In this document: one piece after another, positions 10,463-16,276 of the stretch | Layout of the letters: each line of letters starts with the position of its first letter | Numbering within the stretch: position 1 is the stretch's first letter | Assembly (NCBI RefSeq): GCF_019038595.1 | Contig: NZ_JAHOPF010000005.1 | Span: forward strand, 248,001-312,000 | DNA length: 64,000 nucleotides | Origin: Kaistella soli | Lineage (GTDB): Bacteria; Bacteroidota; Bacteroidia; Flavobacteriales; Weeksellaceae | Direction of reading: 5' to 3' | The notes under the pieces: generated by a model | Databases searched by the model: none | What the model was told of the DNA's origin: nothing | The model's input: only the letters and a program-made list of their open reading frames with translations | Program-made: the position numbers and the translations under genes

Positions 10463-13400
10463 TCAATTGCTATTAGAAAAACAATCGGGAATAAAATTAC
10501 GCGGTAAGCCAATTTCATGTTCCTGAGGATAAGGTTTACGGAACGTCATGCTCACATCTTCTTTAATTTGTTGGTGAATATCGTATTGCCGGTCTTTATC
10601 GGACGTATATCTCGGATCAGGTATCATTGGCATCTTGGCCATTTTCATGATGGTAATCGTGGGAAAATGATAATCTACTTCCACAGTTCCCAAAAGCAAA
10701 TAACAGCCGCCGCCCTGAAACGGATATTTTCCCAGGCTGTCAGGGAAATGTGCGGTATCAAAATAATCACCGTTTGCGTCAATCCAGGTTCCGAAATACA
10801 TGGTTCCTTTTTTGGTTGGGACGTGTTTTCGGGAAATAAGATATGCCAACATTTTCACCTGTTTTTTATGATACTTCAGCAGATCTTTTACAAAAACGGA
10901 GCCGCGGTATTTGGTTTCAAGCAGATCGAAAGGAGTGCAGGAAACCGGAAATCCCAATATTTCGATCTCATCAAAAGCATCCTCAAAGAAATCTCTTTTC
11001 AACTCCGGAAGCCGGTATTCCTGAACAGATTCTTCAAACAGCATTTTACCTCTGTTTTCGGGTTTGAAATTGATCAGTAATAATCTTGCTTCAATTAAAA
11101 GTTCATTTTTTTGTTTTCCTGTAAACCGGAAAGCGCCAATAAATATCAGGATTTGCACCCCTTCAATCCCAATCGGGATGCGCCGGACAAAGTCTTCCAG
11201 TGATTTATAATTTCCATTTCTGTCCCGCGCTTCGGAGATAAGCTGTGCAGTTTTGGTGTCAAGTGACTGGAGGTGCATAAATCCCAAAAAGATATTTTTT
11301 CCTTTTAGTGAAGTCTGAAATTCGCCGGCATTAACGCACGGATTCTGAATGACACCACCCGACATTTTCGCTTCATGCACATAAACTTCGGTCCGATAAA
11401 ACCCTCCCTGATTGTTGATTACCGAAACCATAAATTCCAGTGGATAATACACTTTTAAATATAAACTCTGATAGCTTTCTACCGCATAAGAAGCGGAATG
11501 CGCTTTACAGAAAGAATATCCTGCAAAAGACTCAATCTGCCTGAAAGCCTCCGTGGTCATCTGCTCCGAATGTCCCTGCTTTTTGCAGGATGTAAAAAAG
11601 TTGTTTTTCACTTCATTCAACTTCTGAATCGATCTCTCCTTTCCGCTCATAGCACGTCTCAGAATGTCACCATCGGCATGACTCAGCCCTCCAAAATATT
11701 GGGCAATTTTAATCACATCTTCCTGATAGACCATAATTCCGTAGGTTTCCTTCAGATTTTCTTCAAATACAGGATGGAAATATTCAAACTGATCGGGATT
11801 GTTATGACGGAAAATATACTCTTTCATCATTCCGCTTTGCGCAACACCGGGCCTGATGATCGAAGACGCCGCTACCAAAGTTCTGTAATCGCCGCATTTT
11901 AATCTTCTTAAAAGTCCGCGCATTGCCGGACTTTCGATATAAAAACAGCCTATTGTTTTTCCTGTTGCCAAATATTTATTACACAACGCTTCATCTTTAG
12001 AAATAGAAGTATCACGAATGTCAATCTCAATTCCACGGTTTTTTTTGATGAGTTTTACGGTATCGTTAATCGTCCCGAGACCTCTTTGCGACAGAATATC
12101 AAATTTTTCGAGGCCAATATCTTCAGCCACATTCATATCGAACTGAACGATCGGAAATCCTTTTGGAGGCATTTCCAGGGCAGAATAATTCGTAATAGGT
12201 TCTTCCGAAATCAGAATTCCACAAGCGTGCATGCTTCTCTGGTTGGGGAATTTCTCCATTAATTTTCCGTACTTATGAACCTTCTTTACGATAAAATTCT
12301 GATCATGGTGTTCTACAGATTTTCCAGCAAGATCATCAAGCTCTTCTTTAGGCAATCCGAAAGCTTTACCCACTTCGCGAAAGATAGATTTGTATTTAAA
12401 CTCTACATTGGTTCCGCAAAAAGCAACGTGATTTTTTCCGTACCGTTTAAAAATATATTCTAAAATAGCGTCGCGGTTTTGCCAGCTCCAGTCGATATCA
12501 AAATCCGGCGGTGAAGTCCGGTTGAGATTCAGGAAACGTTCAAAATAAAGATCCAGCTCTATCGGGCAGATGTCTGTAATTCCCAGACAGTAGCTTACAA
12601 TAGAATTAGCGCCACTTCCTCGGCCGACATGCATAAAACCCATCTTATTGCTGTACTGAATGATATCCCAGGTAATAAGAAAATAAGCCGAAAATTTGAG
12701 GTCACCAATCACCTTAAGTTCTTTTTCAACTCTTTTTTCGGCGGCTTCGTTATTGCCATATCTTTCCTGCAGTCCTTCATAAGCCAGTTTGTTCAAAAGC
12801 TGCATGTCTTCTTCCTGAGAATTTGTAAAATATCTTTTATTTTTGTTTTCAGTACTTCCTTTTTCTTTATAATTAAACTCAAAACTGCATGAGTTCATAA
12901 TATGTTCTGTATTTTTAATAATTTCCGGATACTGCTGAAAAGCTTTAATAATTTCTTTTTCAGGTTTGAAATATTCAGATTTCCGGCAGAGATCTTCTTC
13001 ACCGAGTTTTGAAAGAATCGTATTCTGATCGATGGCCCTTAAAATCCTGTGAAGATTGTACTCTTCTTTAGTGCTGAATGTTATTGGCTGCAGAACTACC
13101 ATTTTCGGGATTAGTATTTTAAGCTCGGGACGAAGCAGGAGATTCAGCTCTTCTTCCCGAATACCGATGAATTCATTTTCTTTTAGTGTTAAAGGAATAT
13201 TCTGAATAGGATAAACAACAAATACCTTTTGAAATTCCGGAGCGGTTTCAGAAAGTTCTTCTCCGTCACAATTGTGCGCTGTAATCATTCTGTTTACCTC
13301 TCCAATTCCCGAAAATTCTTCAGCAATGGCAATATACAGCAGTTTATTCTCTTTCCTGATTTCTATTCCTGCGATGGGCTTGATCCCGGCATTTTCACAT

Positions 13401-13549
13401 GCTTTTTTAAAATCATAAATGGCAGTAACAGTATTAATATCCGTTAAAACTAAACTTTTAGTTCCTGAAGATACTGCCTGACTTACAAGCTGTAAAATAC
13501 TCAAAGTTCCGTATCGAAGGCTGTGAAAAGAATGACAGTTGAGAAACAT
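10463..13549 (-). CDS. Error-prone DNA polymerase III alpha subunit, DnaE2/ImuC-like
   Basis: 1028 residues, about 130 shorter than a replicative DnaE and within the usual DnaE2 range. An N-terminal PHP-type domain starts NCHSFHSLRYGTLS with altered metal ligands. The polymerase core has HVGRGSGANS (308-317), the catalytic pair in PDFDIDW (D351, D353) and the third aspartate D484 in EKFDILS; MHACGI matches the finger region. An OB-fold region lies near the C-terminus (about 905-990). It is 24 bp downstream of a Y-family polymerase gene and a divergent S24 regulator, so it is read as the damage-induced translesion polymerase; the replicative dnaE should be elsewhere. Confidence 0.88.
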   Translation of the reverse strand: MFLNCHSFHSLRYGTLSILQLVSQAVSSGTKSLVLTDINTVTAIYDFKKACENAGIKPIAGIEIRKENKLLYIAIAEEFSGIGEVNRMITAHNCDGEELSETAPEFQKVFVVYPIQNIPLTLKENEFIGIREEELNLLLRPELKILIPKMVVLQPITFSTKEEYNLHRILRAIDQNTILSKLGEEDLCRKSEYFKPEKEIIKAFQQYPEIIKNTEHIMNSCSFEFNYKEKGSTENKNKRYFTNSQEEDMQLLNKLAYEGLQERYGNNEAAEKRVEKELKVIGDLKFSAYFLITWDIIQYSNKMGFMHVGRGSGANSIVSYCLGITDICPIELDLYFERFLNLNRTSPPDFDIDWSWQNRDAILEYIFKRYGKNHVAFCGTNVEFKYKSIFREVGKAFGLPKEELDDLAGKSVEHHDQNFIVKKVHKYGKLMEKFPNQRSMHACGILISEEPITNYSALEMPPKGFPIVQFDMNVAEDIGLEKFDILSQRGLGTINDTVKLIKKNRGIEIDIRDTSISKDEALCNKYLATGKTIGCFYIESPAMRGLLRRLKCGDYRTLVAASSIIRPGVAQSGMMKEYIFRHNNPDQFEYFHPVFEENLKETYGIMVYQEDVIKIAQYFGGLSHADGDILRRAMSGKERSIQKLNEVKNNFFTSCKKQGHSEQMTTEAFRQIESFAGYSFCKAHSASYAVESYQSLYLKVYYPLEFMVSVINNQGGFYRTEVYVHEAKMSGGVIQNPCVNAGEFQTSLKGKNIFLGFMHLQSLDTKTAQLISEARDRNGNYKSLEDFVRRIPIGIEGVQILIFIGAFRFTGKQKNELLIEARLLLINFKPENRGKMLFEESVQEYRLPELKRDFFEDAFDEIEILGFPVSCTPFDLLETKYRGSVFVKDLLKYHKKQVKMLAYLISRKHVPTKKGTMYFGTWIDANGDYFDTAHFPDSLGKYPFQGGGCYLLLGTVEVDYHFPTITIMKMAKMPMIPDPRYTSDKDRQYDIHQQIKEDVSMTFRKPYPQEHEIGLPRNFIPDCFSNSN

Positions 13550-13573
13550 TTAATTTAAAATTTTAAGAAAAAA

Positions 13574-14722
13574 TTATTTACCGAAATCAAAACCTGAAGC
13601 TCTTCCTACGGCATCGGTTCCGAAACGGTTTTTAAGATAATCCATCGTTTGATAGAGATTCATCTGCTCTTCTGTATCTTCAAAAAGATTCATCTGATGA
13701 TTTCCGTGGACAAGATCTGTAAATCTTAATCCAATGAGTCTGATACGCATTCTTCGGGTATAAAGTCTGTTAAAAAGCTCGAGAGCGACCCGGGACAGGG
13801 TATGATCTGCCGAAGTATAAGCTACACGGCTTTGTTTGGTCTCCGTATCGAAATTGGAATAGCGAATTTTCACGACAATGGTGGAGGTGAGCCATTTTTC
13901 CTGTCTCAGCTGATAAGCGAGTTTTTCTGCCATTCCATTTAAAATTCTTTTCAATTCCGGAATATCAATCGTATCGGTGGCAAAAGTTCTTTCTGTGGAA
14001 AGAGATTTCCTCTCGGAATACGGAACCACAGGATTTTCATCAATTCCGTTAGCTTTTTTCCAAAGTTCTTTTCCGTTGTTGCCGATCATTTGCTGAAGCA
14101 CCAAAACCGGCATTTCAGATAAAGTATGAATGGTTCTTATCCCAATTCTAGATAACAGCTGAAAAGTTTTGTCTCCTACCATCGGAATTTTTTTCACAGA
14201 AAGAGGATTTAAAAAAGGTTTGATTTCCGATTCTGCGATCTGCCGTTTTCCTTCAGGTTTAGATTCTCCTGTTCCTATTTTGGAGACTGTTTTGTTGGCC
14301 GATAAGGCAAAACTGATTGGCAATCCAGCTTCCTTGGTTACGGCAGCTGCGATTTCCTGGGTCCACTGATAGCATCCAAAAAATTTATCCATACCGGAAA
14401 GATCCAGATAGAACTCATCAATACTTGCTTTTTCCATTACCGGAACTCGTTCCTGAATAATTTCGGTCACGGTATTTGAAAGAGAAGAGTAAAGTTCATA
14501 ATCTCCTTTAATTATTTTTGCATCGGGACACAGCCTCAGCGCCATCCGAATCGGCATTGCAGAACGGACGCCGAATTTTCTGGCTTCATAAGAACATGAG
14601 GCCACTACACCACGGTCGCCTCCGCCGATAATCAAGGGAATATTATTGAGTTTGCTGTTTTGCCGTCTTTCGCACGAAACGAAAAACGCATCCAGATCCA
14701 TATGTACAATTGAACGATTCAC
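13574..14722 (-). CDS. Y-family DNA polymerase (DinB/Pol IV-type)
   Basis: 382 residues from a GTG start; the later ATG at 14701 would remove the first beta strand RSIVH, so GTG is preferred. All catalytic acidic residues are present: D9 in HMDLDAFF and D102-E103 in KASIDEFYLD, so unlike ImuB this should be an active polymerase. Helix-hairpin-helix and little-finger regions follow, and a beta-clamp motif QMNLF is at 343-347. Its first gene position in a unit with the DnaE2-like gene, and the divergent regulator, suggest translesion synthesis under damage control. The -7 element ends 5 bp before the GTG, so the mRNA may be leaderless. Confidence 0.92.
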   Translation of the reverse strand: MNRSIVHMDLDAFFVSCERRQNSKLNNIPLIIGGGDRGVVASCSYEARKFGVRSAMPIRMALRLCPDAKIIKGDYELYSSLSNTVTEIIQERVPVMEKASIDEFYLDLSGMDKFFGCYQWTQEIAAAVTKEAGLPISFALSANKTVSKIGTGESKPEGKRQIAESEIKPFLNPLSVKKIPMVGDKTFQLLSRIGIRTIHTLSEMPVLVLQQMIGNNGKELWKKANGIDENPVVPYSERKSLSTERTFATDTIDIPELKRILNGMAEKLAYQLRQEKWLTSTIVVKIRYSNFDTETKQSRVAYTSADHTLSRVALELFNRLYTRRMRIRLIGLRFTDLVHGNHQMNLFEDTEEQMNLYQTMDYLKNRFGTDAVGRASGFDFGK

Positions 14723-14726
14723 TCCA

Positions 14727-14734
14727 CAAAATTA
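14727..14734 (-). promoter_or_regulatory. -7 promoter element of the Y-family polymerase operon
   Basis: Minus-strand TAATTTTG matches TAnnTTTG. It ends 5 bp from the GTG start, which predicts transcription starting at or next to the start codon. It lies about 32 bp from the palindrome at 14766-14784. Confidence 0.5.
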
Positions 14735-14757
14735 GTTACGTTTTTAAACAATTTTCG

Positions 14758-14765
14758 TATTTTTG
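14758..14765 (+). promoter_or_regulatory. -7 promoter element of the HTH-S24 regulator
   Basis: TATTTTTG matches TAnnTTTG, 19 bp before the ATG at 14784. The predicted start point falls inside the adjacent palindrome. Confidence 0.55.
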
Positions 14766-14784
14766 TTGTTACAAATTATAACAA
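14766..14784. promoter_or_regulatory. Candidate operator palindrome for the S24 regulator
   Basis: Perfect inverted repeat TTGTTA-N7-TAACAA that begins one base after the -7 element and ends on the A of the start codon. A protein bound here would block its own promoter and could reach the divergent polymerase promoter. Binding by the HTH-S24 protein is inference from position and symmetry. Confidence 0.5.
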
Positions 14785-15566
14785 TGTCAGTTTTTTCAGA
14801 TAACATCAGGTTTTTGAGAGGTAAAAAAGAAATTACCCAACAGGAATTAGCGGATACGCTAATCATCACAAGGTCACGCTATGTTTCCTACGAAGACGGC
14901 CGTTCGGAACCGCCGATTGAGGTTTTGGTGAAGATCTCGAAGTTTTTTAACATCAGTATAGATCTTCTGGTTTCGGTTGATATCAGAAAATATCCGATTG
15001 AAGAAATTCTGCGCCTGCCCGACAACCGAATTGTACTTCCTGTTGTGGTAGATAAACTGGGCAACAACAGCATTGAAATTATTCCTCAGAAAGCCTCGAT
15101 GGGTTATTTATCCGGTTATAGCGATCCTGAATATATTGAAAGCCTGCAGCGGATTTCTCTTCCTTTCCTCACCAACGGAAAGTACAGAGCTTTTCCCGCG
15201 CAAGGAGATTCGATGCCGCCTTTTAAAGACGGTTCTTATATTATCGGAAAATATCTTGAAAACATTGATGACTTAAAACTCAATAGAAGTTATGTATTTG
15301 TGACGCTCAATGACGGTATTTCCTATAAACGCTTCAAGTCTAAAAATAAAAAGGCGGTTACGGTAGCTGCAGACAATTCTTTTTATGAACCCTATGAAAT
15401 TCCTTTTCATGAAATTGTAGAAATCTGGCAATATGCTTCCGGTATTTTTCCTGAAGATTTTGAACCGGATCATTTTGAAAATCACAACTTAAAAGAGATG
15501 TTTCTGGAATTGAGGAAAGACATCCGCGATCTCGACCTAAAGGTTTCCGGCCTTAAAGAAGAGTAA
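14784..15566 (+). CDS. XRE-family HTH transcriptional regulator with S24 (LexA/UmuD-like) domain
   Basis: 260 residues from the ATG at 14784; an in-frame TTG at 14763 lies inside the -7 element and is rejected. Residues 5-60 form an XRE HTH (ITQQELADTL...SRYVSYEDGRSEPP). The C-terminal half is an S24 peptidase fold with the catalytic serine S143 in QGDSMPP and lysine K182 in ISYKRF, 39 residues apart as in LexA. The expected self-cleavage Ala-Gly is M106-G107 here (KASMGYLSGYSDPEY). Likely a damage-sensing repressor of itself and the divergent polymerase genes. A short coiled-coil tail (235-260) follows the S24 domain. Confidence 0.88.
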   Translation: MSVFSDNIRFLRGKKEITQQELADTLIITRSRYVSYEDGRSEPPIEVLVKISKFFNISIDLLVSVDIRKYPIEEILRLPDNRIVLPVVVDKLGNNSIEIIPQKASMGYLSGYSDPEYIESLQRISLPFLTNGKYRAFPAQGDSMPPFKDGSYIIGKYLENIDDLKLNRSYVFVTLNDGISYKRFKSKNKKAVTVAADNSFYEPYEIPFHEIVEIWQYASGIFPEDFEPDHFENHNLKEMFLELRKDIRDLDLKVSGLKEE

Positions 15567-15646: not shown

Positions 15647-16276
15647 GTGAACAAAAGAATAATTTATCTGATCTTATTGCTCTGCGCGAATTTTTTACAG
15701 GCTCAGCAAAACGATGAATTCAAAATGGCAAAGAAATATTTTGATTATCAGCGGTTTATGCTGGATAATGAATTCCGCAAAAAATTTGATGAGGAAAAAA
15801 ACATTCAGCAAAAAATTGCCATTAAGACCGATTTTTCAGAGTTCATGATTAAACTCGACAGCATTCAGAATATCGCTTTTATCGGCACTTTAATCAAAGT
15901 AAAAAACCGCGAAGATCTGGAAAGAATTACCAGAAAAAATACATCCGCTCCCCACCTTGAAAATCCTGAAAAAACTGATCTGAATGAGGAAGCGTCTTAT
16001 CCCGGAGGTTTCGAAACTTTAAGAAAGCAGGTCGCTCATCTGTTTTATACCGGCTCGGTATTGCCAGACCAAAAACTTTTGAAAACCAATGTAGTTTTCG
16101 TTGTAGAAAAGGACGGAAGCATCAGCAGCGTCCATGCAGAAGGCGAAAACTTCACTTTCAACCGACAAGCCGAAATTGCGATGTATCTTCTGCCCGAAAA
16201 ATTTTCTCCTGCCATCATTAACGGAAATGCAGTGCGTTACCGGTTCCGGTTGCCTTTGGCGATGAATTTTGACTAA
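15647..16276 (+). CDS. Secreted TonB C-terminal-like domain protein
   Basis: 209 residues from a GTG start; no in-frame ATG precedes the signal peptide (MNKRIIYLILLLCANFLQAQ, 1-20). Residues about 115-205 resemble the TonB C-terminal/energy-transducer fold used as a stand-alone module in Bacteroidetes: YPGGFETLRKQVAHLF, NVVFVVEKDGSISSV and FSPAIINGNAVRYRFRLPL. There is no membrane anchor, so it is not a classical TonB; a periplasmic accessory role is possible. The middle (30-110) is helical and charged. Followed by an unrelated outer membrane protein gene with its own promoter. Confidence 0.75.
   Translation: MNKRIIYLILLLCANFLQAQQNDEFKMAKKYFDYQRFMLDNEFRKKFDEEKNIQQKIAIKTDFSEFMIKLDSIQNIAFIGTLIKVKNREDLERITRKNTSAPHLENPEKTDLNEEASYPGGFETLRKQVAHLFYTGSVLPDQKLLKTNVVFVVEKDGSISSVHAEGENFTFNRQAEIAMYLLPEKFSPAIINGNAVRYRFRLPLAMNFD

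Follow-up and report, generated by a model that had tools for sequence, protein, structure and literature searches.

Genes of the cassette

We analyzed a 64,000-nt window of the Kaistella soli genome (contig NZ_JAHOPF010000005.1, positions 248,001 to 312,000), and all coordinates below are counted from its first nucleotide. The window carries a three-gene cassette in which a repressor gene of the helix-turn-helix (HTH)-S24 type is divergent from two DNA polymerase genes. An original prediction, made from the DNA letters, had described this two-gene polymerase unit with its divergent regulator, and all three reading frames lay where it had placed them. The repressor (260 amino acids, 14784..15566, + strand) has its recognition helix at residues 30-37, a Met106-Gly107 scissile bond, and the catalytic residues Ser143 and Lys182. 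The mechanical open reading frame begins at TTG 14763; when aligned, the relatives indicate a start at ATG 14784. In Pfam, HTH_3 (PF01381) scored 47.3 bits (cut-off 23), and Peptidase_S24 (PF00717) scored 24.0 bits, barely above its cut-off of 23.3. A genome-wide PF00717 search missed even this S24 domain and was not used to claim that other S24 proteins are absent. When the repressor itself was the query, one match was obtained in its own genome at E 0.001.

The polymerase genes lie on the - strand and are separated by 24 base pairs (bp), so that they probably form one operon. The first of them, at 13574..14722, starts with GTG 14722 and encodes a Y-family polymerase of 382 amino acids with the Pfam domains IMS and IMS_C (the thumb domain was slightly under its cut-off, 25.8 vs. 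27). Of the 86 distinct loci that share this spacing, the window among them, 67 have ATG as the start of this gene and 19 have GTG. The catalytic acids D9, D11, D102, and E103 were found in 95, 95, 95, and 94 of 95 distinct sequences, and the Q and F of a clamp-type motif (QMNLF, residues 343-347) were found in all 95. Judged from these residues, the protein appears to be an active-type enzyme and not an ImuB, as had been proposed. The second gene, at 10463..13549, encodes a DnaE2-like C-family polymerase of 1028 amino acids with PHP, C-family polymerase, fingers, and HHH domains; the PHP match is partial (profile positions 2-99 of 164). Residues D349, D351, and D484 were kept and align to the polymerase acids of the E. 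coli alpha subunit, positions that we take to be catalytic. The assignment of a DnaE2-like partner was supported.

No ImuA was found over the NF033429 cut-off in 60 genomes, in agreement with the original prediction, in a search of moderate sensitivity, because the model also remained under the cut-off in a Caulobacter control genome that we assume to carry imuA. A weak match to NF033429, one per genome, was present in 58 of the 60 (frames of 331-395 amino acids). In Kaistella soli this match is RecA, and the matches in the other genomes are taken to be RecA.

Two predicted operators between the divergent genes

The start codons of the repressor and Y-family genes are 61 bp apart. Using the Bacteroidetes promoter consensus, which we assume to apply here, we called a presumed -7 element for the repressor gene (TATTTTTG, 14758..14765, + strand) and another for the polymerase operon (TAATTTTG, 14727..14734, - strand), whose transcript would then be near-leaderless. 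Two operators were predicted in the same interval. Operator A (TTGTTTAAAAACGTAACTA, 14733..14751, - strand) lies in the polymerase promoter, where it shares 2 bp with the presumed -7 element. The last base of operator B (TTGTTACAAATTATAACAA, 14766..14784, + strand) is the A of the repressor start codon. A shared region of approximately 60 bp with both -7 elements and one palindrome had been expected; the region holds two operator-like sites, not one.

Among the distinct repressor genes that have an ATG in the aligned start position (123), 105 had a site B ending in CAA on this codon. The remaining 18 were 14 solitary copies with a Met-Gly bond and no neighboring polymerase, and four relatives with an Ala-Gly bond. 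Across relatives, the spacing from site A to site B was 33 or 34 bp, the register of site A being picked by score among spacings of 31-35 bp. The arms of site B covaried at arm pair 4, where none of 5000 shuffles reached the observed value.

Recognition helix and operator bases

The relation between protein and operator was examined in the 105 distinct repressors with site B, the right half-site being read as T-x-y-CAA. Val34 was accompanied by AA at site B in 37/37 cases, and AA occurred without Val34 in 4/68; Asp31 was accompanied by CC in 9/9, and CC occurred without Asp31 in 1/96. The same relation was observed at site A, with AA in 36/36 scorable Val34 rows (one Val34 row was unscorable) and CC in 9/9 Asp31 rows. 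In the structural model of the repressor (mean predicted local distance difference test score [pLDDT] 71.7, predicted template modeling score [pTM] 0.46), residues 30-37 form the third helix, in a confident region, and the structure matches of the model include lambda CI, LexA, and P22 c2. Taken together, the covariation, the arm pairing, the helix model, and the match to P22 c2 make a good, if not final, case for repressor binding at both sites.

The residue-base relation offers a direct and inexpensive way to test which polymerase set is under which repressor copy. In genomes with more than one copy (L107/L128, L111/L120, and L110/L121), the half-sites of the repressors sometimes differ and sometimes agree. 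C. culicis carries one TAT and one TCC half-site. In C. gambrini and strain ZHDP1, where a UmuC-like fragment is all that lies near the second copy, both are TAT. This pattern hints at insulated control in some genomes or shared control in others.

Conservation of the gene order

The original prediction had suggested a search for the three-gene order in other Bacteroidetes, and within its genus the cassette proved to be the norm. A full-length repressor was present in 33 of 35 other congeneric genomes; of the other two, one had a partial match and one had none. The Y-family gene was divergent from the repressor, within approximately 300 bp, in 32 of these 33 genomes, and a near-full-length dnaE lay within the fetched stretch in 27 of the 33 repressor loci. 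In the wider family, 213 of 296 genomes gave a match to the repressor with an E value no higher than 1e-20, partial matches counted.

Proposed mechanism

We read the locus as a self-repressed, DNA-damage-inducible translesion synthesis cassette, with a probability of about 0.85. The reading draws on the genes and their intact active-site residues, the two conserved operator-like sites, the covariation, the conservation of the unit, and the perfect operator that is the sole one in the genome. It is supported by a published relative with nearly the same operator: according to the main text of PMC8565304, a repressor of Elizabethkingia anophelis, the one Weeksellaceae regulator for which this is shown there, binds TTAC-AAATT-GTAA, and mitomycin induces both the repressor and the error-prone polymerase gene opposite to it. 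In undamaged cells, a dimer of the CI-like S24 repressor would occupy operator B, which covers the beginning of the repressor gene, and operator A, which lies against the polymerase -7 element, and both promoters would be silenced. RecA filaments formed on damaged DNA would stimulate the repressor to cut itself at Met106-Gly107 through Ser143 and Lys182 and to leave the operators. The active Y-family and DnaE2-like polymerases would then be made, assemble, and act in lesion bypass, probably with RecA replacing ImuA, and the outcome would be mutagenic. This logic had been guessed well in the original prediction, which mentioned neither a second operator nor Met-Gly as the scissile bond.

Several observations weigh against this reading. 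At site B, arm pair 5 showed no excess over shuffles (1602/5000), and the palindrome of site A is poorer than that of site B. The helix-operator covariation rests on few independent switches: in a quick tree of the S24 part only, Val34 changes 12 times and AA 14 times, and well-supported branches gave five independent Val34/AA pairs (4.4 concordant on average, none opposed, median P = 0.125) and four Asp31/CC pairs (4/4 concordant, P = 0.125), which is consistent with the relation and not significant by itself. Six of the 33 congeneric repressor loci, one of them at a contig end, had no full dnaE nearby, and 5 of 131 distinct homologues stand opposite a divergent gene for a UmuC-like enzyme instead. 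The Y-family tail (approximately residues 356-377) resembles the RecA N-terminus weakly, 61 of 2000 shuffles scoring equally high; its G368 was found in 95/95 and its F367 in 90/95 distinct sequences, and this weak match may fit, without proving, the published proposal of RecA as a partner. Finally, self-cleavage is not assured, because the repressor has Met-Gly where the self-cleaving S24 proteins described in PMC10020695 and PMC8565304 have an Ala-Gly or Cys-Gly scissile bond.

The Met-Gly scissile bond

Among 131 distinct homologues, the residue before the scissile Gly was Met in 118, Ala in 12, and Glu in one, proportions that overstate Met-Gly among S24 regulators at large, because the sample is biased toward the clade (the named loci are the best 80 of at least 539 relatives) and the repressor profile was made from seq­uences that lean the same way (six of seven Met-Gly). 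The 12 Ala-Gly proteins, which are relatives from outside the Met-Gly clade, include L084 and L085, the closest relatives found outside the family. In the one homologue with Glu, L132 of Chryseobacterium rhizosphaerae, the Met-Gly bond is lost, the Ser and Lys remain, and no dnaE was found in the stretch. No report of a Met-Gly scissile bond was found in the titles and abstracts of openly licensed PMC literature.

A repressor that binds its operators without cutting itself, Met having replaced Ala, would leave induction to another route, such as a protease or an antirepressor. The prevalence of Met at this position, its difference from the published scissile bonds, and the loss of the scissile Gly as well in L132 all fit this alternative. 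It is opposed by the retention of Ser143, Lys182, and the scissile Gly in 118/118 Met-Gly proteins, which argues for a working peptidase. It is also opposed by locus L186 of genome G103, which combines a Met-Gly repressor with a divergent polymerase and an exact TTAC-AAATT-GTAA operator. At 264 of 265 residues, the glycosylasparaginase of this genome is identical to an enzyme of solved structure, and we take the source organism of that enzyme to be Elizabethkingia; G103 is therefore probably Elizabethkingia, and L186 corresponds in operator and gene order to the mitomycin-inducible case described in the main text of PMC8565304. Genome G129 has the same glycosylasparaginase sequence as G103 and merely weak repressor matches, so that we infer, and do not observe, the link of L186 to the E. 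anophelis strain that was tested. On balance, we consider a repressor that does not cut itself unlikely.

Position 139, shortly ahead of the catalytic Ser, was Ala in 106 of 118 Met-Gly proteins, whereas 11 of 12 Ala-Gly proteins had Val or Ile there; the smaller residue may make room for Met. Positions 139 and 147 both separate the two groups near the catalytic Ser; approximately 10 other columns do likewise, and descent from a common branch thus explains these changes as well as compensation does. The model is silent on how Met sits in the active site, because the loop around Met106 has pLDDT <50. We tentatively suggest, at somewhat less than even odds, that a clade of SOS-type repressors in Kaistella, Chryseobacterium, Epilithonimonas, Soonwooa, probably Elizabethkingia, and others self-cleaves at Met-Gly, that the size-reduced residue 139 fits the Met, and that a two-residue code retunes operators to insulate or join repressor copies. 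If cut, Met-Gly would join Ala-Gly and Cys-Gly as the third kind of scissile bond, and would widen the known sequence range of the switch that governs induced mutagenesis; if it is not cut, these bacteria would sense damage by an unknown route.

Reach of control in the genome

In a genome-wide pattern search, the only operator with no mismatches was the one at the cassette itself. No site with fewer than five mismatches lay within approximately 250 bp upstream of recA (identified from its sequence) or of the other Y-family gene. Since the genome has no perfect operator besides this one, near recA or elsewhere, control looks local, and the predicted autoregulation through the shared intergenic region is supported.

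A wider regulon, with recA and further repair genes under the same repressor, would resemble the regulons of approximately nine operons reported for repressor relatives in some other Bacteroidetes families in the main text of PMC8565304. Operator A itself has three mismatches to the search pattern, so weaker targets of equal quality could hide among the many three-mismatch matches. These matches were no commoner than those of the reversed control pattern (three mismatches or fewer: 441/454 vs. 546/526), and the five mismatches of the best sites upstream of recA and the second Y-family gene also stand against wider control. One candidate was a site with one mismatch in the intergenic region 56 bp before a PIF1-like helicase gene. 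We rejected it as a second target: none of 15 other genomes has the site, the best matches there having 3-6 mismatches (the repressor type was unchecked for five Chryseobacterium-group genomes), and in four of the 15 that have Asp31-type repressors the CC-type pattern was absent before the helicase gene too (6-7 mismatches). We judge a wider regulon unlikely. The canonical LexA winged-helix DNA-binding domain (PF01726) had no match in the Kaistella soli genome; among the 60 genomes, three had one short match each, two of them over the cut-off.

That the DnaE2-like protein is instead a second replicative polymerase, not induced by damage, is very improbable: its catalytic acids are intact and its gene encodes a full-length C-family polymerase, but the genome, which has two Y-family and two C-family polymerases in total, has a longer C-family gene elsewhere (a 1559-amino-acid frame), the cassette gene shares a probable operon, preceded by an operator, with the Y-family polymerase, and at the locus a full copy is missing from several congeneric genomes.

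Variants of the locus and neighboring genes

The window repressor was 80-88% identical to many Chryseobacterium repressors and 56-66% identical to the congeneric ones, apart from that of G019 (94%). Mobility or recent transfer of the cassette was considered on these grounds, and local gene replacement is likely. At the five loci with a UmuC-like gene (L091, L098, L118, L119, and L172), the repressors are 80-85% identical to that of the window and the polymerases are 24-26% identical to its Y-family enzyme (Pfam was checked for L091 and L119). At L091, the repressor gene is followed by a gene with a 2OG-Fe(II) oxygenase Pfam domain, presumably of the AlkB type. For the solitary Met-Gly repressors (L135, L137-L139, L141, L143, L145, L146, L148-L151, L156, L157, and L163), the fetched stretch, a short one at L150 and L151, contained no polymerase match, and the start codon carried no operator. 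Genome G016 has two copies: L053 survives as a remnant, with pieces of the polymerase gene and of the end of dnaE, and L090 retains an intact polymerase gene. Adjoining the cassette of the window, 15647-16276 encodes a 209-amino-acid protein with no Pfam match. Its relatives, mostly with tadA, were found at several Kaistella and some Chryseobacterium repressor loci.

Comparison with known systems

The repressor shares the fold of its DNA-binding domain with lambda CI and P22 c2, and its S24 C-terminal domain with CI; it differs from them in standing before cellular polymerase genes, with no recognized prophage. With the ImuA-ImuB-DnaE2 system, the cassette shares a DnaE2-type polymerase and a Y-family partner under a damage-responsive repressor, but its Y-family protein is catalytically intact by its residues and no ImuA was detected in the profile search of 60 genomes.

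A closer likeness was found in the Bacteroidetes pair of an active PolY and a DnaE2 without ImuA, for which passages of PMC6511836 and PMC12926913 propose RecA as partner; this PolY2 and DnaE2 pair was named DnaE2B-PolY-RecA in 2026. Both have two apparently active polymerases in one operon, and no ImuA was detected here in a search of moderate sensitivity. The likeness is judged from the gene pair and the active-site residues. The RecA-N-terminus-like motif proposed in those passages for the Y-family partner is matched weakly by the tail of the window protein, and the S24 repressor and the operators of the pair are not treated in them.

The repressor belongs by homology to a family named non-canonical LexA in PMC8565304, so the contrast drawn in the original prediction, local autoregulation instead of a general LexA, was a false one. 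With the E. anophelis member, as described in the main text, it shares a CI-like HTH and an S24 domain, a divergent polymerase gene, a near-identical operator (TTAC-AAATT-ATAA in the window against TTAC-AAATT-GTAA), and a site at its own promoter. It differs in its scissile bond, because the Ala-Gly of non-canonical LexA is described there as conserved and the Kaistella soli repressor has Met106-Gly107. By the Ala-Gly definition it is a variant and no plain member of non-canonical LexA; very likely it works in the same way. Paralogy and shifted palindromes of Weeksellaceae repressors are also described in that text, in which neither the second operator nor the residue-base relation was found. 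The cassette is thus a conserved example of a described system, largely explained in print, to which we add a second operator, the relation between recognition-helix residues and operator bases, and the Met-Gly bond. The non-canonical LexA and the PolY-DnaE2 pair without ImuA are hereby joined in one conserved and apparently locally controlled unit of a large bacterial family.

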